The notes under the pieces: generated by a model
What the model was told of the DNA's origin: nothing
Database searches by the model: none
Seen by the model: only the letters and a program-made list of their open reading frames with translations
Translations under genes and position numbers: made by a program
Assembly: GCF_007858475.1 (NCBI RefSeq)
Contig: NZ_VIGX01000006.1
Coordinates: 124,001 to 188,000, forward strand
DNA: 64,000 bases
Reading direction: 5' to 3'
From: Tsukamurella conjunctivitidis
GTDB taxonomy: Bacteria; Actinomycetota; Actinomycetes; Mycobacteriales; Mycobacteriaceae
Shown here: one piece after another, positions 6,605-15,760 of the stretch
How the letters are laid out: the number at the start of each line of letters is the position of its first letter
Numbering within the stretch: the first letter of the stretch is position 1

Positions 6605-8489
6605 ATGGCTGCACCGGAGCGCACGGAGGAGTTCGATTTCGTCGTCGTGGGATCGGGTGCGGGTGGAGGGCCGCTCGCCGCCGCGCTCGCTCTCGCTGGG
6701 CACACCGTGCTGGTTCTGGAAGCGGGTGACGATCACGAGTGCCCGTACTACAGCGTCCCGATCATGCAGGGCCACGCGAGCGAGGACGCGGACATGCGAT
6801 GGGACTTCTTCGTCGACCACTGGGACGATCCGCGGCAGGCGCGGCGCGATGCGAAGTACGTCGGGGCCGAGGCGGGCGTGCTCTACCCACGGGGGAGCAC
6901 GCTCGGTGGGAGCACCGCGATCAGCGCGATGGTGCACATCTACCCGCACTCGAGCGACTGGGAGCGGCTCGCCGACCTCACGAGTGACGATTCCTGGGGA
7001 CCGGAGGCGATGCGCCGGCGGATCGAGCGGTTGGAGGATTGGCGGGCCGTGGACGCGGAACCCCTCCCCGGCGACGACGCCCACGCTCGCGACCGGAAGG
7101 CGCGGCACGGACGCGGCCGGCTGGCTCGGCGTCACGCGCGCGGCCCCGAAGCTCGCGGGCCGCGAGCCGCGTTTCCTCGACGTGATCGCCGCGATCGAGA
7201 CCACCAGTAGGCAGATGTTCGGCATCCCCGAGGATGTCAGTCTCCCGCGCGATGCGAACGCCGCCGACACGCCGCAGGACTTCCAGGGGATGTCGTTCAT
7301 CCCCGTCGCCGTCCGCGGCGGCGTCCGCAACGGGGCGCGGGAACGCGTCGCCGACACCGTCTCCCGCACGCCAAACCTGCAGGTACGGCTCGACGCCCTC
7401 GTCACGAAAGTCCTGCTCGACGACAGCGGGCGGGCCCACGGGGTCGAGTACCGGTCGGGGCGGCGTCTCTACACCGCGGCGCCCCGCCGCTCCGATCCCC
7501 GCGACCCGGGCAGGCGGGTGCCGGACGTGCCCGCGGATCCGGAGCCCACGATCGTTCGGGCCCGGAAGGAGGTGATCCTCGCGGCCGGCGCGTTCAACAC
7601 GCCGCAACTCCTCAAGCTCTCGGGCATCGGCCCGCGCGCCGAACTCGAACGGTGGGGCGTCCCGGTCCGCGTCGACGCACCGGGTGTCGGGGCGAACCTG
7701 CACGACCGGTACGAGGTCGCGGTCACCTTCGGCCTCGACCGGGACTACCCACTGTTCGACGGTTCGCCGCTCGACGTCCCGGCCGACCCGTCGAATCCGG
7801 ATGCGCTGTACCAGGAGTGGACCGACAGCCGTGACGGCCCGTATGCGACGAACGGCTCGCTCGCCGCGCTCATCGCGAAGTCGAGCGTCGCGGGGGAGGC
7901 GTCCGACCTGATCGTCTTCGCCCTCCCGATCGACTTCCACGGCTACTACCCGGGGTACGCCCGCGAGGGCGCGCAACACCACGACCGGCTGTCGATCCTG
8001 GTCCTCAAGGCGCACACCCAGAACCGTGCCGGCTCGGTGACCCTACGGTCGGCCGACGCTCGCGACGCGCCGCACATCGCCTTCCGCTACTTCGAGGAGG
8101 GGTCGCCCGGATTCGAGCGCGACCTGACCGGTGTCGTCGACGGGGTGGAGATCGCCCGCGCCATCGCGCGGAACCTCGAGACCATCGGCGTCCGAGAGGA
8201 ACTGACCCCGGGAACGGCGAGGTCCACCCGCGAGCAGATCGCCGAGTTCGTCCGCGACGAGGCGTGGGGGCACCACGCGTGCGGGACCGCGAAGATCGGC
8301 GCGGCCGACGATCCGTCGGCCGTGCTCGACGGGCGGTTCCGCGTGCGCGGAGTCCCGGGCCTGCGCGTGGTGGACGCCTCCGTGTTCCCCGACATCCCGG
8401 GGTTCTTCATCGCCTCCGCCGTCTACCTGGCGAGCGAGAAGGCCGCCGACGACCTGCTGTCCGAGTACGGCCGGCCGGCCGGCGCGTGA
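6605..8489 (+). pseudogene. GMC-family FAD oxidoreductase interrupted by a frameshift
   Basis: Choline-dehydrogenase/glucose-oxidase type flavoprotein. From ATG 6605 the frame encodes the Rossmann motif (VVVGSGAGGGPLAAALA), the PRGSTLGGSTAISAM FAD segment and then, near 7085-7115, loses similarity. The next frame (+1) carries on with GWLGVTRAAPKLAGREPRFLD, the flavin-loop region [13 protein letters not shown], and the C-terminal active-site region (WGHHACGTAKIG, ASVFPDIPGFF), ending in TGA at 8489. One extra base, or a loss of two, around the RHG/GWL junction explains this. Without it the protein would be about 627 residues, normal for GMC. It may be a true pseudogene or an assembly error. 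The substrate is unknown (alcohol or sugar). Confidence 0.85.
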
Positions 8490-8490
8490 G

Positions 8491-8895
8491 TCAGTCCAGG
8501 ACGGCGAGGGCGTCGATCTCCACCAGCATCACCTCGTGCGGGAGGTCGACGAAGACCGTCGTGCGGCAGGGGAGCGCGGCGCCCTCGGGCACGTTCTCGG
8601 CGATGAAGGCGCCGTAGACCTCGTTCATCGCGGCGAAGTCGTCGCGGGTGGTGAGGTACACACGGAACATCAGCACGTCGGCGACGGACGCGCCGCCGGC
8701 CTCGAGGATGGCCTTGACGTTCTCCAGGGTGCGCCGGGTCTGCTCCTTGACGTCGCCCGCGGCGATGTACTGGTTGGTGGCCGGGTCCATCGGGCCCTGG
8801 CCCGAGACCTGCAGCATGTTACCGCGGCGCACGCCCTGGGAGAAGAAGTGGGCCGGAGCGGGTGCGTCGGTGGTGGAGACGGCGGTCGCGGTCAT
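8491..8895 (-). CDS. RidA-family enamine/imine deaminase
   Basis: Cytoplasmic YjgF/YER057c/UK114-type protein, 134 residues, that hydrolyses reactive enamines and imines released by PLP-dependent dehydratases. The family patterns are present: SGQGPMDPATNQ near residue 31, QTRRTLENVKAILEAGGAS at the helix, and the anion-binding arginine region LPCRTTVFVDLPH followed by MLVEIDALAVL at the end. It is the last gene of the leftward set that starts with the sugar-acid kinase and the IclR regulator, 55 bp after iclR. Its place beside a PLP deaminase fits a role in finishing that enzyme's imine product. Confidence 0.9.
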   Translation of the reverse strand: MTATAVSTTDAPAPAHFFSQGVRRGNMLQVSGQGPMDPATNQYIAAGDVKEQTRRTLENVKAILEAGGASVADVLMFRVYLTTRDDFAAMNEVYGAFIAENVPEGAALPCRTTVFVDLPHEVMLVEIDALAVLD

Positions 8896-8950
8896 GGTGA
8901 TTCCTTTGCTCTCGTGGGTGTTTCGGATGTTCCCGGGGTGTCCGGGAGGT

Positions 8951-9697
8951 TCAGCGCGGGCGGTACCCGCAGTCGCGGGAGATCGCCGCGCACGTCGCGC
9001 GCAGCGGCTCCAGCAGTTCCAACAGCTCGTCGAAGGGGAGGACCACGTCGGGCACCGAGACGGACACCGCGGCGACGACGGTGCCGGTCGCGTCCCGGAC
9101 CGGCGCGCCGATGCAATTGATCGTCGGCTCGTTCTCCTCGCGGTCGGCGGCCCAGTCCTGCGCGCGGACGCGGTCGATCTCGGCGAGGTAGTCCTCGGGC
9201 GTCACGATGGTGTTCGCGGTCCGCCGGGTGAAGTCCATTCCGGCGACGAACCGCCGCAGCTCGTCGTCGGGGAGCGTCGACAGCATGAGCTTGCCGACGG
9301 CGCTGGAGTTGAGATTGACCTCCATCCCCACCCGCGAGTACATGCGGATGAGGTCGCGCGATTCCAGCTTGTCGATGTAGACCACCGCGTCGCCCTCGCG
9401 GGCCGCGAGATGGGTGGTCCGGCCGTACTCGCGGTTGAACGCGACGAGATGGGGCGCGGCGATCTCGCGGATCCCGCGCTGCTCCGAGGCGCGCGCGGCC
9501 AGGTCGAAGACGCGCGAGCCGAGGTGGTAGCGGTGCGCCTCGTCGTGGTACGCGAAGCGTGCCTCCGTGAGCGGGCGCAGGAGGCGGAGCACGGTGGTCT
9601 TGTGCACGCCGAGCTCGTCGGCCAGTTCGTCGAGCGAGGCCGGTCCCTCGCCCAGTAGGCGGAGGATCTCCAGCGCGCGGGTCAGGCTCTGGCTCAT
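8951..9697 (-). CDS. IclR-family transcriptional regulator
   Basis: A 248-residue regulator with an N-terminal winged helix (about 1-60; the recognition region is LADELGVHKTTVLRLLRPL) and a C-terminal IclR effector domain (about 70-245, including VGMEVNLNSSAVGKLMLS and CIGAPVRDATGTVVAAVSVS). IclR proteins usually sense a sugar acid or aromatic acid and control a neighbouring catabolic operon. Its start overlaps the stop of the upstream kinase gene by 4 nt (ATGA), so it is made from the kinase transcript and would be part of the circuit it controls. Direct repeats in the divergent gap at 10797-10824 are a candidate target. Confidence 0.93.
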   Translation of the reverse strand: MSQSLTRALEILRLLGEGPASLDELADELGVHKTTVLRLLRPLTEARFAYHDEAHRYHLGSRVFDLAARASEQRGIREIAAPHLVAFNREYGRTTHLAAREGDAVVYIDKLESRDLIRMYSRVGMEVNLNSSAVGKLMLSTLPDDELRRFVAGMDFTRRTANTIVTPEDYLAEIDRVRAQDWAADREENEPTINCIGAPVRDATGTVVAAVSVSVPDVVLPFDELLELLEPLRATCAAISRDCGYRPR

Positions 9698-10725
9698 GGT
9701 GCTCGGCTCTCCCGGGGCGGCGGGAAGTCCGCGCCGGCGATGCGGATCCCGTCCGGGCTCACGTGCGCGTCCGACCAGGCGTCGTCGTCGCAGGCCAGCA
9801 GGGCCGTCATCGCCTCGGGTGGCAGGGTGGCGAAATCGGCTCGCACCGTCAGGGTCGCGGCGGCGCCGGCGTGCCCGCGGCGCAGGCAGCTGCGTAGGTC
9901 CTCGTCGCGCGCGAGCCCGTGCAGGAAACCCGCCGCGAAGGAGTCGCCGGCCCCCACGGGCTCGACCACGTCGACGGAGAGGGCGGGGACCGCGATCTCC
10001 GCGCCCGCCCGGTCCACGACGATGGCGCGCAGCGCGCCGTCCTTGACGACGACGGTGCGCGGCTCGGGGAGCAGGGCGCGGATCTCGGCGGCGGAGCCGG
10101 TGCCGAGCACGCGCTCGGCCTCGTCGGACCCGACCAGCACGACGTCGGCGCAGCGGGCCAGCTCGATGACGACAGACGGGTCACCATCGGGCCAGAGTTG
10201 CTCGCGCCAGTTGACGTCGAAGGTCACGGTGCCGCGCACGCCGGTGCGGTCGCGGAGCAGGGCGCGGGTGAGGGCGGCGCACGACGGGGAGAGGGCCGGT
10301 GTGATCCCGCTGGTGTGCACGATGCGGGCGGCCTCGAGGGTCGCCGCGACCGCGGGGCGGGTGAGGAAGTCGGGGCCCATCGCCGCGGCCGCGCTGCCGG
10401 CGCGCCGGTACGTGCTGGCGGTGACGGGCTCGCCCGCGTCGTCGACGCCCTCGGTCTTGGCGTACCGACCGGTGAACGCCGTCTCGTCGACCTCGACGCC
10501 CTCCGTCCGCACACCGTGCGCGCGCAGGTGTTCGACGATCCGCCGCCCCTCGGCGTCCCCGCCGACCCGGCTGAGGAACGCGGTGGGAGTGCCCAGGGCC
10601 GCGGTGCCCGCGGCGACGTTCGCCTCCGCGCCGCCGGCGTGCATGGCGGGAGCGGCGGCGTCGAGGTCCGCCGCGGCGACCAGTGCCAGCGGCTCCCCGA
10701 GGCACGCGATCCGAGCTCCAGTCAC
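9694..10725 (-). CDS. PfkB-family sugar kinase, probable 2-dehydro-3-deoxygluconokinase
   Basis: ATP-dependent ribokinase-family kinase of 343 residues. It carries the N-terminal substrate region (ACLGEPLALV and HAGGAEANVAAG) and the anion-hole/catalytic motif VEPVGAGDSFAAGF with catalytic Asp261. The partner genes predict 2-keto-3-deoxygluconate (KDG) as substrate, giving KDPG for the aldolase encoded across the divergent gap; sequence alone cannot separate KDG from other sugar substrates. The GTG at 10725 follows AGAGGGGC and gives a standard N-terminus; an in-frame start 66 nt upstream would only add Arg-rich sequence. It is first in the leftward operon kinase-IclR-RidA. Confidence 0.82.
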   Translation of the reverse strand: MTGARIACLGEPLALVAAADLDAAAPAMHAGGAEANVAAGTAALGTPTAFLSRVGGDAEGRRIVEHLRAHGVRTEGVEVDETAFTGRYAKTEGVDDAGEPVTASTYRRAGSAAAAMGPDFLTRPAVAATLEAARIVHTSGITPALSPSCAALTRALLRDRTGVRGTVTFDVNWREQLWPDGDPSVVIELARCADVVLVGSDEAERVLGTGSAAEIRALLPEPRTVVVKDGALRAIVVDRAGAEIAVPALSVDVVEPVGAGDSFAAGFLHGLARDEDLRSCLRRGHAGAAATLTVRADFATLPPEAMTALLACDDDAWSDAHVSPDGIRIAGADFPPPRESRAP

Positions 10726-10796
10726 GCGTCGTGCCCCTCTTCGGTCTCGTGGTTGTGCAGGTCCTCGCCGCAATGCTAGCGTCTGTGACACGCATC

Positions 10797-10824
10797 ACGC
10801 AACGATGATTGCAATATACGCAAC
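10797..10824. promoter_or_regulatory. Direct repeats ACGCAAC 21 bp apart in the divergent promoter
   Basis: ACGCAAC occurs at 10797-10803 and again at 10818-10824. The 21-bp spacing is two helical turns, so both copies face the same side of the DNA. An overlapping pair TTGC (10809-10812) and GCAA (10820-10823) forms an inverted repeat. The site lies between the kinase and deaminase genes and could be the operator of the cluster's IclR protein. Confidence 0.35.
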
Positions 10825-10841
10825 ATAGCAGATTGGGACGC

Positions 10842-12098
10842 ATGATGGTCAACGGGAACGGTGCCCGGCCGGTGGAGTTGAGTGTGCTCGACAAGGCAGT
10901 ACCCGCATGGGCGAACGGCATGACAACGGCCGACTTCCTCGCCCGGGAGCCCCGTCTGGCGGAACTCTCCACGCCCGTTCTCGTGCTCGACCGGGCGGCG
11001 ATGGCCGGCAACGTCGCCGAGTTCGCCCGGTGGACCGCCACCCACGGATTCGATCTCGAGCCGCACGGCAAGACCACGATGGCGCCCGCGCTCTGGCAGG
11101 ACCAGCTCGACGCCGGGTCCACGGCGATCACCGTCGCCAACCTGCCGCAGCTGCAGGTGGCCGTCGCCACCGGCTTCCGGAACCTGCACGTGGCGAACGC
11201 GATCGCCGACGCCGCCGGGATCCGCTGGCTCGGCGAGGCGCTCGACGCCGACCCGGCGCTCGAGGTCACCCTCTGGGCCGACGGCCTCGGCACCGTCGAC
11301 GTGCTCGAGCGGGGGCTCGCCGCCGCGACCCGGCAGCCCACCGTGCTCGTCGAACTGGGTGGCCCCGGCGGCCGCACCGGCGCGCGCACCGTCGACGAGG
11401 CGTTCGCCATCGGCGAGGGCATCGCCGCCTCTCCGCGGCTGCGCCTCGGCGGGGTCACCGGCTACGAGGGTGCCTTCGCGCACGACACCTCGTCCGCGGC
11501 GCTCGGCACCGTCGACGACTACCTCCGCACGCTGAAGGAGCTGCACGCCCGCCTGCGCCCGCTCTACCCGGAGGGACGGATCGTCGTCTCCGCCGGGGGG
11601 AGCGCCTACTTCGACCGCGTCGCCGCGATCCTGGGCGACATCGACGACGCACGCGTCGTCATCCGCTCGGGGGCGTACATCATCCACGACGACGGCTTCT
11701 ACCGCGGCATCACGCCGTCGGGCCGCGAGGCCGGCGCGCCCCGCCTGCGGTCGGCCATGCACGTCTGGGCCCGCGTGATCTCGCGGCCCGAGCCCGGCCT
11801 CGCCCTCCTCGACGTGGGCCGGCGCGACGTCTCCTTCGACGAGGGCCTGCCCGAGCCGCAGGTCGCCGCCGCGGGCCTCGGCGAGCCCGCACGCCCGATC
11901 GACGCGGAGATCTCCGCCGTCAACGACCAGCACGCCTTCCTGCGCCTGCCCGCCGGCGATCCGCTCGCCGTCGGCGACGTCGTGCGCCTGGGCCTGAGCC
12001 ATCCCTGCACCGTCTTCGACAAGTGGCGCGTCATCCCCGTGGTCGCGGACGACGGGGCGAACCCGCGGGTCGTCGACATGATCTCCACCTACTTCTAG
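10842..12098 (+). CDS. PLP-dependent D-amino-acid dehydratase/deaminase, probable D-glucosaminate dehydratase
   Basis: Fold-type III PLP enzyme of the D-serine dehydratase / D-threonine aldolase-like group, 418 residues. An alanine-racemase-like barrel carries the Schiff-base Lys77 in LEPHGKTTMAP, and the C-terminal domain has the metal-binding His387 and Cys389 in SHPCTVFDKW. The family eliminates water and ammonia from D-configured 2-amino-3-hydroxy acids. With a KDG-type kinase and KDPG aldolase beside it, D-glucosaminate (giving KDG plus ammonia) fits better than D-serine. ATG 10842 is chosen; the TTG 33 nt upstream lies in the operator region. It is the first gene of the rightward operon. 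Confidence 0.78.
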   Translation: MMVNGNGARPVELSVLDKAVPAWANGMTTADFLAREPRLAELSTPVLVLDRAAMAGNVAEFARWTATHGFDLEPHGKTTMAPALWQDQLDAGSTAITVANLPQLQVAVATGFRNLHVANAIADAAGIRWLGEALDADPALEVTLWADGLGTVDVLERGLAAATRQPTVLVELGGPGGRTGARTVDEAFAIGEGIAASPRLRLGGVTGYEGAFAHDTSSAALGTVDDYLRTLKELHARLRPLYPEGRIVVSAGGSAYFDRVAAILGDIDDARVVIRSGAYIIHDDGFYRGITPSGREAGAPRLRSAMHVWARVISRPEPGLALLDVGRRDVSFDEGLPEPQVAAAGLGEPARPIDAEISAVNDQHAFLRLPAGDPLAVGDVVRLGLSHPCTVFDKWRVIPVVADDGANPRVVDMISTYF

Positions 12099-12107
12099 AG
12101 GCGCACC

Positions 12108-13709
12108 ATGCACGACACAGTCATCCGCGCCGCCACCGTCGTCGACGGCACCGAGGCGCCGCGCTACACCGCCGACGTCGCGATCTCCGACGGCGTCATC
12201 GCCGCGATCGGCAGCGAGCTCGGGCCCGCGCGCCGCGTCATCGACGCCGACGGGCTGGTGCTCAGCCCCGGCTTCATCGACATGCACGCCCACTCCGACC
12301 TGCAGGTCCTGCTCAATCCCGAGCATCCCTCGCGGATCACGCAGGGCGTCACGTGCGAGGTGATCGGCCAGGACGGCCTGAGCTACGCGCCCGTCTCCGA
12401 CGAGACGCTGGCCGTGGTGCGGCGCCAGATCGCCGGCTGGAACACGGACCCGGAGGACTTCGACTTCTCCTGGCGGACCGTCGGCGAGTACCTGGACCAT
12501 CTCGACGCGGCCGGGACCGCCACGAACCTCGCCTATCTCGTACCGCACGGCCTGCTCCGCGCCCTCACCCGCGGTTTCGACGACGGTGTCGCGTCCCCGG
12601 CCGAGGTCGAACGGATGCAGGAGATCCTGGCGCAGGGCCTGCGCGAGGGCGCCGTAGGCCTGTCCACCGGCCTCACCTACACCCCGGCGATGTACGCCGA
12701 CGACGCGGAGCTCGCTGCGCTCATGCGGACCACCGGCGAACTCGGCGGCTACTTCTCGCCGCACCACCGCAGCTACGGCGCCGGCGCGATGGAGGCCTAC
12801 GCCGAGATGATCGACCTGTCGCGCCGCACCGGCTGCCCGCTGCACCTCGCGCACGCCACCCTCAACTTCGGCCCCAACAAGGGGCGCGCGCCCGAGTTGC
12901 TGACGCTGCTCGACGAGGCCGTCGCCGCCGGGGCGGACGTCTCCCTCGACACCTACCCCTACCTGCCGGGCGCCACCACCCTCGCCGCGATCCTGCCCAG
13001 CTGGGCCGCGGCCGGCGGCGCCGACGCGACGTTGGTGCGGCTGCGCGACCCGCAGGATCTCGCCCGCATCCGGGAGCACCTGGAGCACACCGGATCCGAC
13101 GGCTGCCACGGCGTGATCGCGGAGTGGGAGACCATCGAGATCAGCGGCGTCGGCGACGATGCGCTGGCCGGTTACGTGGGCCGGACCGTCGCGCGGATCG
13201 CCGCCGACGAGGGCCGCGACCCGTTCGACGTGTGCATCGGCATCCTGCTCGACGATCGGCTCGCGACCGGGATCCTGCAGCACGTCGGGCACGAGGAGAA
13301 CGTGCGCGCGATCATGCGCCACCGGACCCACACCGGCGGCAGCGACGGCCTGCTCGTCGGCGGCAAACCGCACCCGCGCGCGTGGGGCACCTTCGCCCGC
13401 TACCTCGGCCACTACAGCCGCGACCTCGGCCTGATGAGCCTCGAGGAGTGCGTGGGCCATCTCACCGGCCGGGCCGCCCGTCGCCTCCGCCTGGTCCGAC
13501 GGGGCCTGGTCCGCGAGGGCTACGCCGCCGACCTGGCACTGTTCGACCCCGACGTGGTGATCGACCGTGCCACCTACGACGCCCCGCGCACGCCCGCAGC
13601 GGGATTCACGCACGTCTTCGTCCGCGGTGTCGCCGCGCTCGACGACGGGGAGACCACCGGCGCGCTCGCGGGCGGCGCGCTGCGCCTCACGGAAGAAGGA
13701 GTCCTGTGA
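12108..13709 (+). CDS. N-acyl-D-amino-acid deacylase family amidohydrolase, probable N-acetyl-D-glucosaminate deacetylase
   Basis: Metal-dependent amidohydrolase of the D-aminoacylase group, 533 residues, expected to release acetate from an N-acetyl-D-amino acid. Metal ligands are visible: His60 and His62 in FIDMHAHSDL, the bridging Cys83 in GVTCEVIG, His219/220 in FSPHHRS, His246/249 in HLAHA, and Asp413 in HTGGSDGLL. It starts 9 bp after the PLP deaminase and shares a 4-nt overlap (GTGA) with the aldolase. In the marine chitin-oxidation pathway, N-acetylglucosaminate is handled by enzymes resembling D-amino-acid catabolism, and this pairing matches. True D-amino-acid substrates remain possible. 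Confidence 0.8.
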   Translation: MHDTVIRAATVVDGTEAPRYTADVAISDGVIAAIGSELGPARRVIDADGLVLSPGFIDMHAHSDLQVLLNPEHPSRITQGVTCEVIGQDGLSYAPVSDETLAVVRRQIAGWNTDPEDFDFSWRTVGEYLDHLDAAGTATNLAYLVPHGLLRALTRGFDDGVASPAEVERMQEILAQGLREGAVGLSTGLTYTPAMYADDAELAALMRTTGELGGYFSPHHRSYGAGAMEAYAEMIDLSRRTGCPLHLAHATLNFGPNKGRAPELLTLLDEAVAAGADVSLDTYPYLPGATTLAAILPSWAAAGGADATLVRLRDPQDLARIREHLEHTGSDGCHGVIAEWETIEISGVGDDALAGYVGRTVARIAADEGRDPFDVCIGILLDDRLATGILQHVGHEENVRAIMRHRTHTGGSDGLLVGGKPHPRAWGTFARYLGHYSRDLGLMSLEECVGHLTGRAARRLRLVRRGLVREGYAADLALFDPDVVIDRATYDAPRTPAAGFTHVFVRGVAALDDGETTGALAGGALRLTEEGVL

Positions 13710-14338
13710 CCACCGACGACCCATCCGGCCTGCTCGACGCGCTGGCCGCCGACCGGGCGCTCACCGTGGTGCGCGCCCCCGACCTCCCGGACGCGGCCGC
13801 CCTGTGCCGGGCGCTCGCCGAGGGCGGGATCCGCACGGTCGAACTGACCTTCACCACGCCCGACGTGCTCGGCCACCTTGAACGGGCGGCCTCCGTCGAG
13901 GGCACGAACCTCGGTGTGGGCACGGTGCGCTCCGCCGCGCAGGCCCGCGACGCGGTGAACGCGGGCGCGCGCTTCCTCGTCACCCCCGACGTCAACGAGG
14001 AGGTCGCGCAGGCTGCGCGCGACCTGGGCGTCCCCGTCTTCCTCGGAGCACTGACCCCGACCGATGTGGCCCGCGCGGCCGCGCTCGGCTCGGTGGCCGT
14101 GAAGATCTTTCCCGCGCGCGCCTTCGGCCCGGGCTATCTCAAGGACCTGCACGGTCCGTTCCCCGGCCTGCCGCTGCTGCCTTCGGGCGGCGTCAGCGAG
14201 GCCAATGCCCGCGAGTTCCTGGGCGCCGGCGCCGTCGCCGTCTGCGCCGGCACGTCCGTCGTGCCCCCCGACACCGTCGCCGCCGGCGATTGGGCCGACA
14301 TCACTGTCCGCGCCGCGCGTTTCGTCGCCGCGCTCTGA
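13706..14338 (+). CDS. KDPG-type aldolase (2-dehydro-3-deoxy-phosphogluconate aldolase)
   Basis: Class I aldolase of the KDPG/KHG family, 210 residues, that splits KDPG into pyruvate and glyceraldehyde 3-phosphate. The Schiff-base Lys133 lies in SVAVKIFPA and the catalytic Glu46 in RTVELTFTTP; FLVTPDVNEE and LLPSGGVSEAN are the standard phosphate- and pyruvate-site loops. GTG 13706 overlaps the deacylase stop by 4 nt (GTGA), a sign of translational coupling, so the aldolase belongs to the deaminase-deacylase operon. It supplies the last step of the proposed amino-sugar-acid pathway. Confidence 0.92.
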   Translation: MTTDDPSGLLDALAADRALTVVRAPDLPDAAALCRALAEGGIRTVELTFTTPDVLGHLERAASVEGTNLGVGTVRSAAQARDAVNAGARFLVTPDVNEEVAQAARDLGVPVFLGALTPTDVARAAALGSVAVKIFPARAFGPGYLKDLHGPFPGLPLLPSGGVSEANAREFLGAGAVAVCAGTSVVPPDTVAAGDWADITVRAARFVAAL

Positions 14339-14365
14339 CCTTCTTCCAGAACGGGAGTACCACTC

Positions 14366-15760
14366 ATGTCCTCGGCCATCGACTGGCTGCAGCACGACAC
14401 CGGGGGTCTGCTGACCCTCGCAGCGGTGTCGATCGCGGTCCTGCTCGTCCTCATCATCAAGGTCAAGCTCGAGCCCTTCATCGCGCTGATCATCGTGTCG
14501 GTCGCCCTCGCACTGGTGGCCGGCGTCTCCGTCGAGAAGCTCGTCGGGTCGCCGCAGAAGGGGGCGGCGCAATCGATCCTGGAGACCGGCTTCGGCGGCA
14601 TCCTCGGGCACATCGCACCGATCATCGGCCTCGGCACGGTGCTCGGCGCGATCCTCGAGCGATCCGGCGGCGCCGACGTGCTCACCAGCTGGCTGCTCAG
14701 GCTGTTCGGGCCCAAGGGGGCGCCGCTCGCCATGGGGGTCACCGGCCTCATCCTGGGCATCCCGGTGTTCTTCGACATCGGCATCTTCATCCTGGCGCCG
14801 CTGGTCTACGTCGCCGCCAAGCGCGGCGGCAAATCGCTGGTCATGTACGCACTGCCGATGCTGGCGGGCCTGTCGATGACCCACGCCTTCCTGCCCCCGC
14901 ACCCCGGCCCCGTCGCCGCGGCGGGCCTGCTGCACACCTCGCTCGGCTGGATCATCGTCATGGGCCTGGTCTGCGGCATCCCGGCGTGGTTCGCCTCGGG
15001 CGTCGTCTGGGGCACGTGGATCGGCAAGCGCGTGATCGTCGACGTGCCGGAGGAGTTCGTCCCGGAGGAGGAGCACGCCAGCAAGGACCGGCCGCCGCTG
15101 GCGCTGATCGCCTTCATCATCGCCGTGCCGATGCTGCTGATCCTGGGCGGCACCTTCGGCTCGGTGTGGCTGACCCCGGGAACGAAGCCCTTCTCGATCC
15201 TCGTCTTCCTCGGCACGCCCGCGATCGCCCTGACCATCGCCGTGGTGCTGGCCTTCTACCTGCTCGGCATCCGCCGGGGGATCAACGCCACGCAGCTCGC
15301 CGAGATGACCGGCGCGGCGCTCAAGCCGATCGGCATGATCCTCCTCGTGGTCGGCGCGGGCGCCCTGTTCGGCGCGGTCCTGCGGGCCACGGGCGTCGGA
15401 ACGGCACTCACCGACTCGATGTCGGACCTCGGCCTGCCGCTCATCGTGACCGCGTACCTGGTCAGCTGCGCACTGCGCATCGCGCAGGGTTCGGCCACGG
15501 TGGCGATCACCGCGACCGCCGGCATCATCGGCGAGACGGTCGCGGCCGGCAACTACTCGCAGGCGCAGATCGCGCTCATCGTCATCGCGATCTCGGCCGG
15601 GTCGATCATCCTCAGCCACGTCAACGACGGCGGTTTCTGGATCGTCGCCAAGTACTTCAACATGACCGTCAAGCAGACGCTCATGACCTGGTCGGTGCTC
15701 GAGACCGTCCTGTCCGTGGTGGGCTTCGCGATGGTGCTCATCGTCTGGGCGATCGTCTGA
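14366..15760 (+). CDS. GntP-family gluconate/sugar-acid permease
   Basis: Integral membrane H+-coupled importer of the GntP family, 464 residues, with about 12 hydrophobic segments. Conserved features are ETGFGGILGHIAPIIGLGTVLG near residue 75, IPVFFDIGIFILAPLVY, MTHAFLPPHPGPVAAA and HVNDGGFWIV near the C-terminus. Relatives import gluconate, idonate, fructuronate or D-serine. It follows the aldolase by 27 bp in the same operon with GAACGGGAGTA before the start. In context the cargo is likely a free (N-acetyl-)amino-sugar acid. Confidence 0.9.
   Translation: MSSAIDWLQHDTGGLLTLAAVSIAVLLVLIIKVKLEPFIALIIVSVALALVAGVSVEKLVGSPQKGAAQSILETGFGGILGHIAPIIGLGTVLGAILERSGGADVLTSWLLRLFGPKGAPLAMGVTGLILGIPVFFDIGIFILAPLVYVAAKRGGKSLVMYALPMLAGLSMTHAFLPPHPGPVAAAGLLHTSLGWIIVMGLVCGIPAWFASGVVWGTWIGKRVIVDVPEEFVPEEEHASKDRPPLALIAFIIAVPMLLILGGTFGSVWLTPGTKPFSILVFLGTPAIALTIAVVLAFYLLGIRRGINATQLAEMTGAALKPIGMILLVVGAGALFGAVLRATGVGTALTDSMSDLGLPLIVTAYLVSCALRIAQGSATVAITATAGIIGETVAAGNYSQAQIALIVIAISAGSIILSHVNDGGFWIVAKYFNMTVKQTLMTWSVLETVLSVVGFAMVLIVWAIV

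Follow-up and report, generated by a model that had tools for sequence, protein, structure and literature searches.

In the 64,000-nucleotide window of Tsukamurella conjunctivitidis DNA analysed here (contig NZ_VIGX01000006.1, positions 124,001 to 188,000), we found a divergent pair of operons that probably serves to break down an N-acetyl-hexosaminate. The most likely substrate is N-acetyl-D-glucosaminate (GlcNAc1A), the C1-oxidised sugar of chitin. The minus-strand operon encodes a PfkB-family kinase, an IclR-family regulator and a RidA-family protein, and the plus-strand operon encodes a pyridoxal 5'-phosphate (PLP) enzyme, a D-aminoacylase-like amidohydrolase (the deacylase), a 2-keto-3-deoxy-6-phosphogluconate (KDPG) aldolase and a GntP permease, with a short intergenic region between them (Table 1). 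This gene set and its order, an operator between the operons, a single aldolase gene in the genome and chitin-linked neighbours in relatives were directly observed.

Predicted pathway and its conservation

In the predicted route, whose enzyme activities, substrate and repression we deduce from sequence, GntP would import GlcNAc1A, the amidohydrolase would strip acetate from it, and the PLP enzyme together with RidA would eliminate water and ammonia to give 2-keto-3-deoxygluconate (KDG). The kinase would convert KDG to KDPG, which the aldolase would split into pyruvate and glyceraldehyde 3-phosphate, and IclR would repress both operons through a TTGC-N7-GCAA site until an intermediate appears. 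A preliminary description of this DNA had proposed the same succession of steps, and it agrees with the gene set: the kinase has a KDG-kinase relative, the aldolase is the sole Eda in a genome without Edd above cut-off, and relatives carry genes for a GH20 hexosaminidase, a lactonase and a sugar ABC transporter. All seven genes that it had named are open frames of the families and at the places it gave, and the residues it had singled out were located as well, namely Lys77, His387 and Cys389 of the PLP enzyme, Asp261 in the GAGD motif of the kinase (numbered from the GTG start) and Lys133 of the aldolase.

The kinase, aldolase and permease carry much of this assignment. The best solved relative of the kinase is the Thermus KDG kinase 1v19 (106 bits; the next scored 86 bits), which together with Asp261 in GAGD makes it a probable KDG kinase; all kinase equivalogs of NCBIfam stayed below cut-off, the best being the model for bifunctional KDG/2-keto-3-deoxygalactonate (KDGal) kinase (141.9 bits, cut-off 440). 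The aldolase exceeds the cut-off of the Eda model TIGR01182, and its Schiff-base Lys133 coincides in the alignment with a Lys in 1wa3, the T. maritima aldolase. It is the only PF01081 match in the T. conjunctivitidis genome, in which the Edd model found nothing above its cut-off of 708; one locus gave two separate partial matches (161 and 96 bits) and is taken for IlvD. GntP scored 214.6 bits against the model of the D-serine permease DsdX (cut-off 618); by its model scores it is of the gluconate type rather than the DsdX type, and it is the probable importer of GlcNAc1A.

The gene cluster is a conserved actinobacterial module that recurs in many soil actinobacteria. A scan of GTDB genomes with the deacylase confirmed at least 546 relatives; the locus counts given here refer to the best 80, whose neighbouring genes were sought by tblastn with the T. 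conjunctivitidis and L059 proteins (E ≤ 1e-9, up to 10 kb on each side). All 80 belong to genera that, from their names, we take to be actinobacterial, among them Tsukamurella, Rhodococcus, Nocardia, Pseudonocardia, Amycolatopsis, Saccharothrix, Lentzea, Arthrobacter, Glutamicibacter, Kribbella, Nocardioides, Streptomyces, Kitasatospora, Nocardiopsis and Actinomadura. The set is not peculiar to a mycolata-type genome, since Streptomyces, Arthrobacter, Amycolatopsis and Kribbella are among the other genera that have it. The deacylase is accompanied by the PLP enzyme at 79/80 loci, RidA at 77/80, IclR at 75/80, PfkB at 71/80, GntP at 55/80, the KDPG aldolase at 33/80, the lactonase at 8/80 and GH20 at 6/80. 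Deacylase, PLP enzyme, kinase, IclR and RidA occur together at 70/80 loci and the full set of seven at 20/80, several loci being truncated by contig ends (L152 and L162 near the deacylase).

The arrangement is conserved along with the content. At all 71 loci with a kinase match, the kinase gene is on the minus strand and immediately precedes the plus-strand PLP gene; IclR and RidA, where found, are on the kinase's strand within 4.5 kb, and GntP is placed just downstream of the deacylase at 39 of its 55 loci and upstream on the opposite strand at the other 16. A chance arrangement can be excluded, as other actinobacteria share both the genes and their divergent order. T. tyrosinosolvens has an identical, annotated gene order and a deacylase 94% identical to that of T. 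conjunctivitidis, and the deacylase is present in 12 of 16 Tsukamurella genomes. When genomes were sampled evenly, 49 of 249 from the order had a deacylase of the close clade (identity at least 49%), as did 15 of 396 from the phylum (E ≤ 1e-140, three candidates scored per genome).

The TTGC-N7-GCAA site at 10809-10823 is the sole copy in the whole window (shuffle mean 0.15). Of 79 comparable regions between the operons (T. conjunctivitidis plus 78 of the 80 loci), 78 hold the motif with a spacing of exactly 7; in mononucleotide shuffles, on average 0.6 regions had it at spacings 6-8. IclR is likely the local repressor of the cluster, as judged from its family and this site; in the NCBIfam ranking KdgR came first (157 bits, cut-off 275), with BhcR at 155.6 bits (cut-off 350). 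We considered the motif as a pathway-specific marker and rejected it, since two Streptomyces genomes carry groups of GTTGC-N7-GCAAC sites at another locus. There (L182-L185), several such sites fall within about 25-40 kb, beside genes that, judged by eye without a family search, look like betaine/C1 oxidation genes and include an IclR gene, which suggests an operator type shared between loci. Across ten genomes, GTTGC-N7-GCAAC was more frequent than its reversed control in seven, equal in one (G644) and less frequent in two (G642 and G650).

Variant loci were also seen. No consistent replacement transporter was found at the loci lacking GntP, where the one adjoining gene checked at two of them encodes a major facilitator superfamily transporter (L106) and CbiD (L102). 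An extra gene adjoining the cluster at 16 loci was set aside; the two copies checked encode a trypsin-like peptidase. In the related cluster L039 (G080), the deacylase and GntP matches are split, with a TGA inside one piece, and the cluster is perhaps decaying. Family f15 (L033, L035 and L074) has deacylase, RidA and PLP genes without nearby matches to GntP, kinase or aldolase, and in L033 the gene after the deacylase belongs to the mandelate-racemase family. At L034 (G219), a deacylase of the clade has no accompanying PLP match; after it come a GH20 match and genes grouping with those for the lactonase, solute-binding protein and ABC permease.

Link to chitin in relatives

Relatives carry a longer version of the module, with added genes for a GH20 hexosaminidase, a lactonase, ABC permeases and a solute-binding protein; Pfam confirmed these families in L059, where the lactonase N-terminus looks by eye like a twin-arginine translocation (Tat) signal. 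For example, four Amycolatopsis loci (L097, L104, L105 and L128) have all four kinds of gene after GntP on the same strand, and at the Actinokineospora locus L112 lactonase and GH20 genes come directly after the deacylase. At least 18 of the 49 clade genomes have a GH20 gene no more than 10 kb from the deacylase; among the matches listed, 0 of 33 more distant paralog sites do.

The same tendency is seen at the level of genomes. Without correction for kinship, lytic polysaccharide monooxygenase (LPMO) genes were found in 40/49 clade genomes as compared to 44/200 others, GH20 in 39/49 as compared to 51/200, and a KDPG aldolase anywhere in the genome in 49/49 as compared to 92/200. We rejected LPMO co-occurrence as proof and kept it only as support, being confounded by family, with LPMO in 0 of 16 genomes of Tsukamurella itself. 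The co-occurrence and neighbour data leave the gluco and galacto isomers of the substrate indistinguishable.

Relatives with LPMO and GH20 would use the pathway on their own oxidised chitin. The preliminary description had pointed to LPMO genes as a check on the chitin link, and the check came out negative in the T. conjunctivitidis genome, which has no PF03067 (LPMO) match, no PF00728 (GH20) match and no GH18 in a search that left aside GH19 and sugar oxidases. Oxidative attack on chitin by T. conjunctivitidis itself is therefore unlikely; if the pathway is right, Tsukamurella would scavenge free GlcNAc1A made by others.

Relation to the ong pathway and competing explanations

In passages of the paper on the marine ong pathway (PMC9537276), OngB deacetylates, OngC deaminates to KDG and KdgK phosphorylates, and the RidA-family OngD is required for growth; the ong clusters of Vibrio, Klebsiella and Serratia carry an additional KDPG aldolase gene, and the hosts reported there are Gammaproteobacteria and one Achromobacter. 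With the ong cluster of Pseudoalteromonas prydzensis, as those passages describe it, the T. conjunctivitidis cluster would have in common deacetylation as the first step, PLP-dependent deamination with a RidA-family gene, a KDG kinase, KDPG and a local repressor; the ong cluster also holds a GH20 gene, as the extended module of relatives does. The ong system uses a sodium:solute symporter (SSS) importer, a MurR/RpiR regulator and TonB receptors, whereas T. conjunctivitidis has GntP and IclR. As in an ong-type system, the locus holds families for import, deacetylation, PLP-dependent deamination, RidA, KDG kinase and KDPG aldolase plus a regulator; an LPMO and a hexosaminidase in the same genome, the other mark of such a system, were not found in T. 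conjunctivitidis.

Two reference loci, from Pseudoalteromonas piscicida and Vibrio, were taken to be ong clusters on the basis of gene sizes and order and of the score of the P. piscicida deacylase against PpOngB (583 bits). Identity to them is 31-32% for the deacylase, 31-35% for the PLP enzyme, 23-28% for PfkB, 30-31% for RidA and 30% for the aldolase, and within these two loci IclR gave no match to OngR and GntP none to OngIT. The OngB and OngC subfamilies differ from those of the T. conjunctivitidis deacylase and PLP enzyme, and its kinase, regulator and transporter likewise belong to other subfamilies than their ong counterparts. By these comparisons, the cluster would work like the ong pathway but is not a member of it. 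The likeness to the Pseudoalteromonas route that had been noted earlier thus stands for the reaction logic and fails for gene-for-gene orthology, with the specificity residues of OngB replaced.

The deacylase retains both His of HxH, the zinc ligands His219 and His249, the catalytic Asp413, Tyr191, Tyr283 and the carboxylate-binding Arg424. It belongs to the same amidohydrolase family as AfDam (1m7j) and BbDam (3gip), of which AfDam was covered by our residue table: HxH, the two zinc His, the catalytic Asp and the carboxylate Arg are common to both, whereas the T. conjunctivitidis enzyme has Asp89 for the zinc Cys, Thr251 for the carboxylate Lys, a smaller and more polar pocket and a longer insertion. 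The side-chain pocket is formed by Phe/Met/Met in AfDam, Ala/Ala/Gly in OngB and Thr/Asn/Val in T. conjunctivitidis, where no large hydrophobic residue is found, and the Thr position is Thr in 24 of 28 clade rows and Ser in the others. As aligned, the pocket is clade-specific, fairly polar and different from the OngB solution, and the enzyme is probably an N-acetyl-D-glucosaminate deacetylase from another subfamily than OngB. The PLP enzyme, with its PF14031 domain, Lys77, which we take to be the PLP lysine, and His387 and Cys389, presumably the metal pair, fits the D-serine-dehydratase-like fold-type III family and is a probable D-glucosaminate dehydratase/ammonia-lyase. RidA would complete the imine step after it, in a role like that of OngD.

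Several results weigh against GlcNAc1A as the substrate, in addition to the missing LPMO, GH18 and GH20 genes. The deacylase scores higher with AfDam (261 bits) than with PpOngB (217 bits), and four OngB residues are replaced in 28/28 clade rows: the zinc ligand Cys97 by Asp89, Glu226 by Tyr223, Lys254 by Thr251 and Ser292 by Thr290. Ser291 is replaced by Ala289 in 17/28 rows, and the Gln298 site aligns to Arg in 27/28, in an unsure alignment adjoining the longer insertion. In PpOngB, the S292T substitution left 1.3% of kcat/Km, according to passages of PMC9537276/PMC12017989. In the deacylase tree, the OngB rows join AfDam (100/100), apart from the actinobacterial clade, and we do not class the deacylase as an OngB member because of this placement and the replacement of Ser292 and Cys97. 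The sole NCBIfam match of the PLP enzyme is 3-hydroxy-D-aspartate aldolase (86 bits, cut-off 690), and the OngC-type rows of its midpoint-rooted tree (Kpn, Ppi and Vib; 99/90) exclude the T. conjunctivitidis enzyme. A kinase match is absent from 9/80 loci, two of them truncated near the deacylase, and an aldolase match within the cluster from 47/80. Finally, the kinase and aldolase could suit the galacto isomer too.

That isomer, N-acetyl-D-galactosaminate, or another 2-acetamido-aldonate would be degraded by the same chemistry, ending in 2-keto-3-deoxy-6-phosphogalactonate (KDPGal). GH20 enzymes act on both hexosamines, and the best-scoring kinase model is bifunctional for KDG and KDGal; against this, the aldolase passes the Eda model and reaches only 94 bits on the KDPGal aldolase model (cut-off 207), and the nearest solved kinase is named KDG kinase. 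We regard the galacto isomer as an unlikely substrate.

A D-amino-acid pathway appears improbable. In it, N-acyl-D-serine or N-acyl-D-threonine (or another 3-hydroxy-D-amino acid) would be deacylated and converted by the PLP enzyme and RidA to a keto acid, with kinase and aldolase as mere neighbours. Both the deacylase and the PLP enzyme come from D-amino-acid families, the closeness to AfDam and the loci without a kinase match fit such a role, no other NCBIfam model fits the PLP enzyme and IclR much better than BhcC and BhcR (every score is under its cut-off), and related PLP enzymes of Klebsiella and Pantoea adjoin RidA, IclR and amino-acid ABC genes. However, a sugar acid is favoured because D-serine and D-threonine need neither a kinase nor an aldolase. 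The kinase at 71 loci, the operator in 78 regions, the sole Eda without Edd, the gluconate-type GntP and the GH20 and lactonase neighbours in relatives all speak against a D-amino acid, and the earlier argument that kinase and aldolase in one locus lower the odds of a pure D-amino-acid role agrees with this. A horizontally acquired ortholog of the marine ong cluster, for which the same reaction logic and several common families might be cited, is hardly credible given the low identities of deacylase and kinase, the tree positions of OngB and OngC outside the actinobacterial clades, and IclR and GntP in place of RpiR and SSS.

Two other systems resemble the GlcNAc1A route in part. In the Salmonella dga/PTS (phosphotransferase system) route, phosphorylation comes before the lyase reaction, and no deacetylase step is known. 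Its ammonia-lyase likewise degrades a glucosaminate to KDPG, and is PLP-dependent going by the title of a reference. The predicted N-acetylglucosamine (GlcNAc) route of Natrarchaeobius likewise has IclR near chitinases, along with a RutC-family gene and a putative glucosaminate-6-P lyase, and differs in that it is proposed to run from GlcNAc deacetylation through glucosamine oxidation to phosphorylation; the word aminoacylase is absent from the text (PMC12343721). In Eleftheria terrae (Betaproteobacteria; L079), a PLP enzyme of the same superfamily comes right after a lactonase gene, possibly as part of another aldonate pathway.

On balance, we lean towards the view that Actinomycetota assembled a GlcNAc1A pathway independently of the gammaproteobacterial ong, with a second deacetylase family, a separate clade of PLP dehydratases, GntP and an IclR/TTGC-N7-GCAA switch, and that this may be a main terrestrial sink for LPMO products, with Tsukamurella as a scavenger. 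The second deacetylase family would have come from a different D-aminoacylase subfamily, with Asp replacing the zinc Cys. No actinobacterial account of the pathway was recognised in the open-access literature searched by title, abstract start or passages, subscription papers lying outside this scope, and a paper on chitin-degrading Arthrobacter (PMC13106269, 2026) lacks the words aminoacylase, oxidized and gluconate. The abstract of PMC9537276 describes what is known of oxidative chitin use, LPMOs aside, as very limited. If this view is true, the fate of oxidised chitin in soil becomes directly testable through a conserved candidate in at least 80 actinobacterial genomes, and one carbohydrate-deacetylase activity arose twice within a single amidohydrolase family.

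Coordinates and neighbouring genes

The start codons of PfkB, the PLP enzyme and the aldolase were set after the annotated T. tyrosinosolvens copy. For the PLP enzyme, ATG 10842 is preferred because the listed TTG start at 10809 is the first base of the conserved operator.

Table 1. Features of the divergent cluster, with positions in the window
Feature	Position	Strand	Family model or basis
RidA/YjgF-family enamine/imine deaminase	8491-8895	-	PF01042 104.6 bits; TIGR00004 105.8 bits (cut-off 106.25, narrowly missed)
IclR-family regulator	8951-9697	-	PF01614/PF09339
PfkB-family kinase, probable KDG kinase	9694-10725	-	PF00294
Predicted IclR-type operator TTGCAATATACGCAA	10809-10823	.	TTGC-N7-GCAA, between the divergent operons
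Fold-type III PLP enzyme, D-serine-dehydratase-like	10842-12098	+	PF14031 81.3 bits; closest solved relative 3gwq
D-aminoacylase-like amidohydrolase (deacylase)	12108-13709	+	PF07969
KDPG/KHG aldolase	13706-14338	+	TIGR01182 169.7 bits (cut-off 156.05)
GntP-family aldonate permease	14366-15760	+	TIGR00791 gluconate:H+ symporter 367.9 bits (cut-off 292.75)

Next to the cluster, a GMC oxidoreductase gene (6605-8489, plus strand) stops 2 bases from the RidA stop, and its nearest solved relatives are alcohol and choline oxidases. Its reading frame differs between the 5' and 3' parts, pointing to a broken gene or an assembly error. None of the four Tsukamurella relatives used for comparison (L031, L055 = L084, L056 and L085) has a match to it, and in these a cation-efflux gene adjoins RidA. 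One of these, L031, comes from a record labelled plasmid 9 of T. tyrosinosolvens NCTC13231; it has prfB, ftsE, ftsX and smpB and looks like a chromosomal piece.

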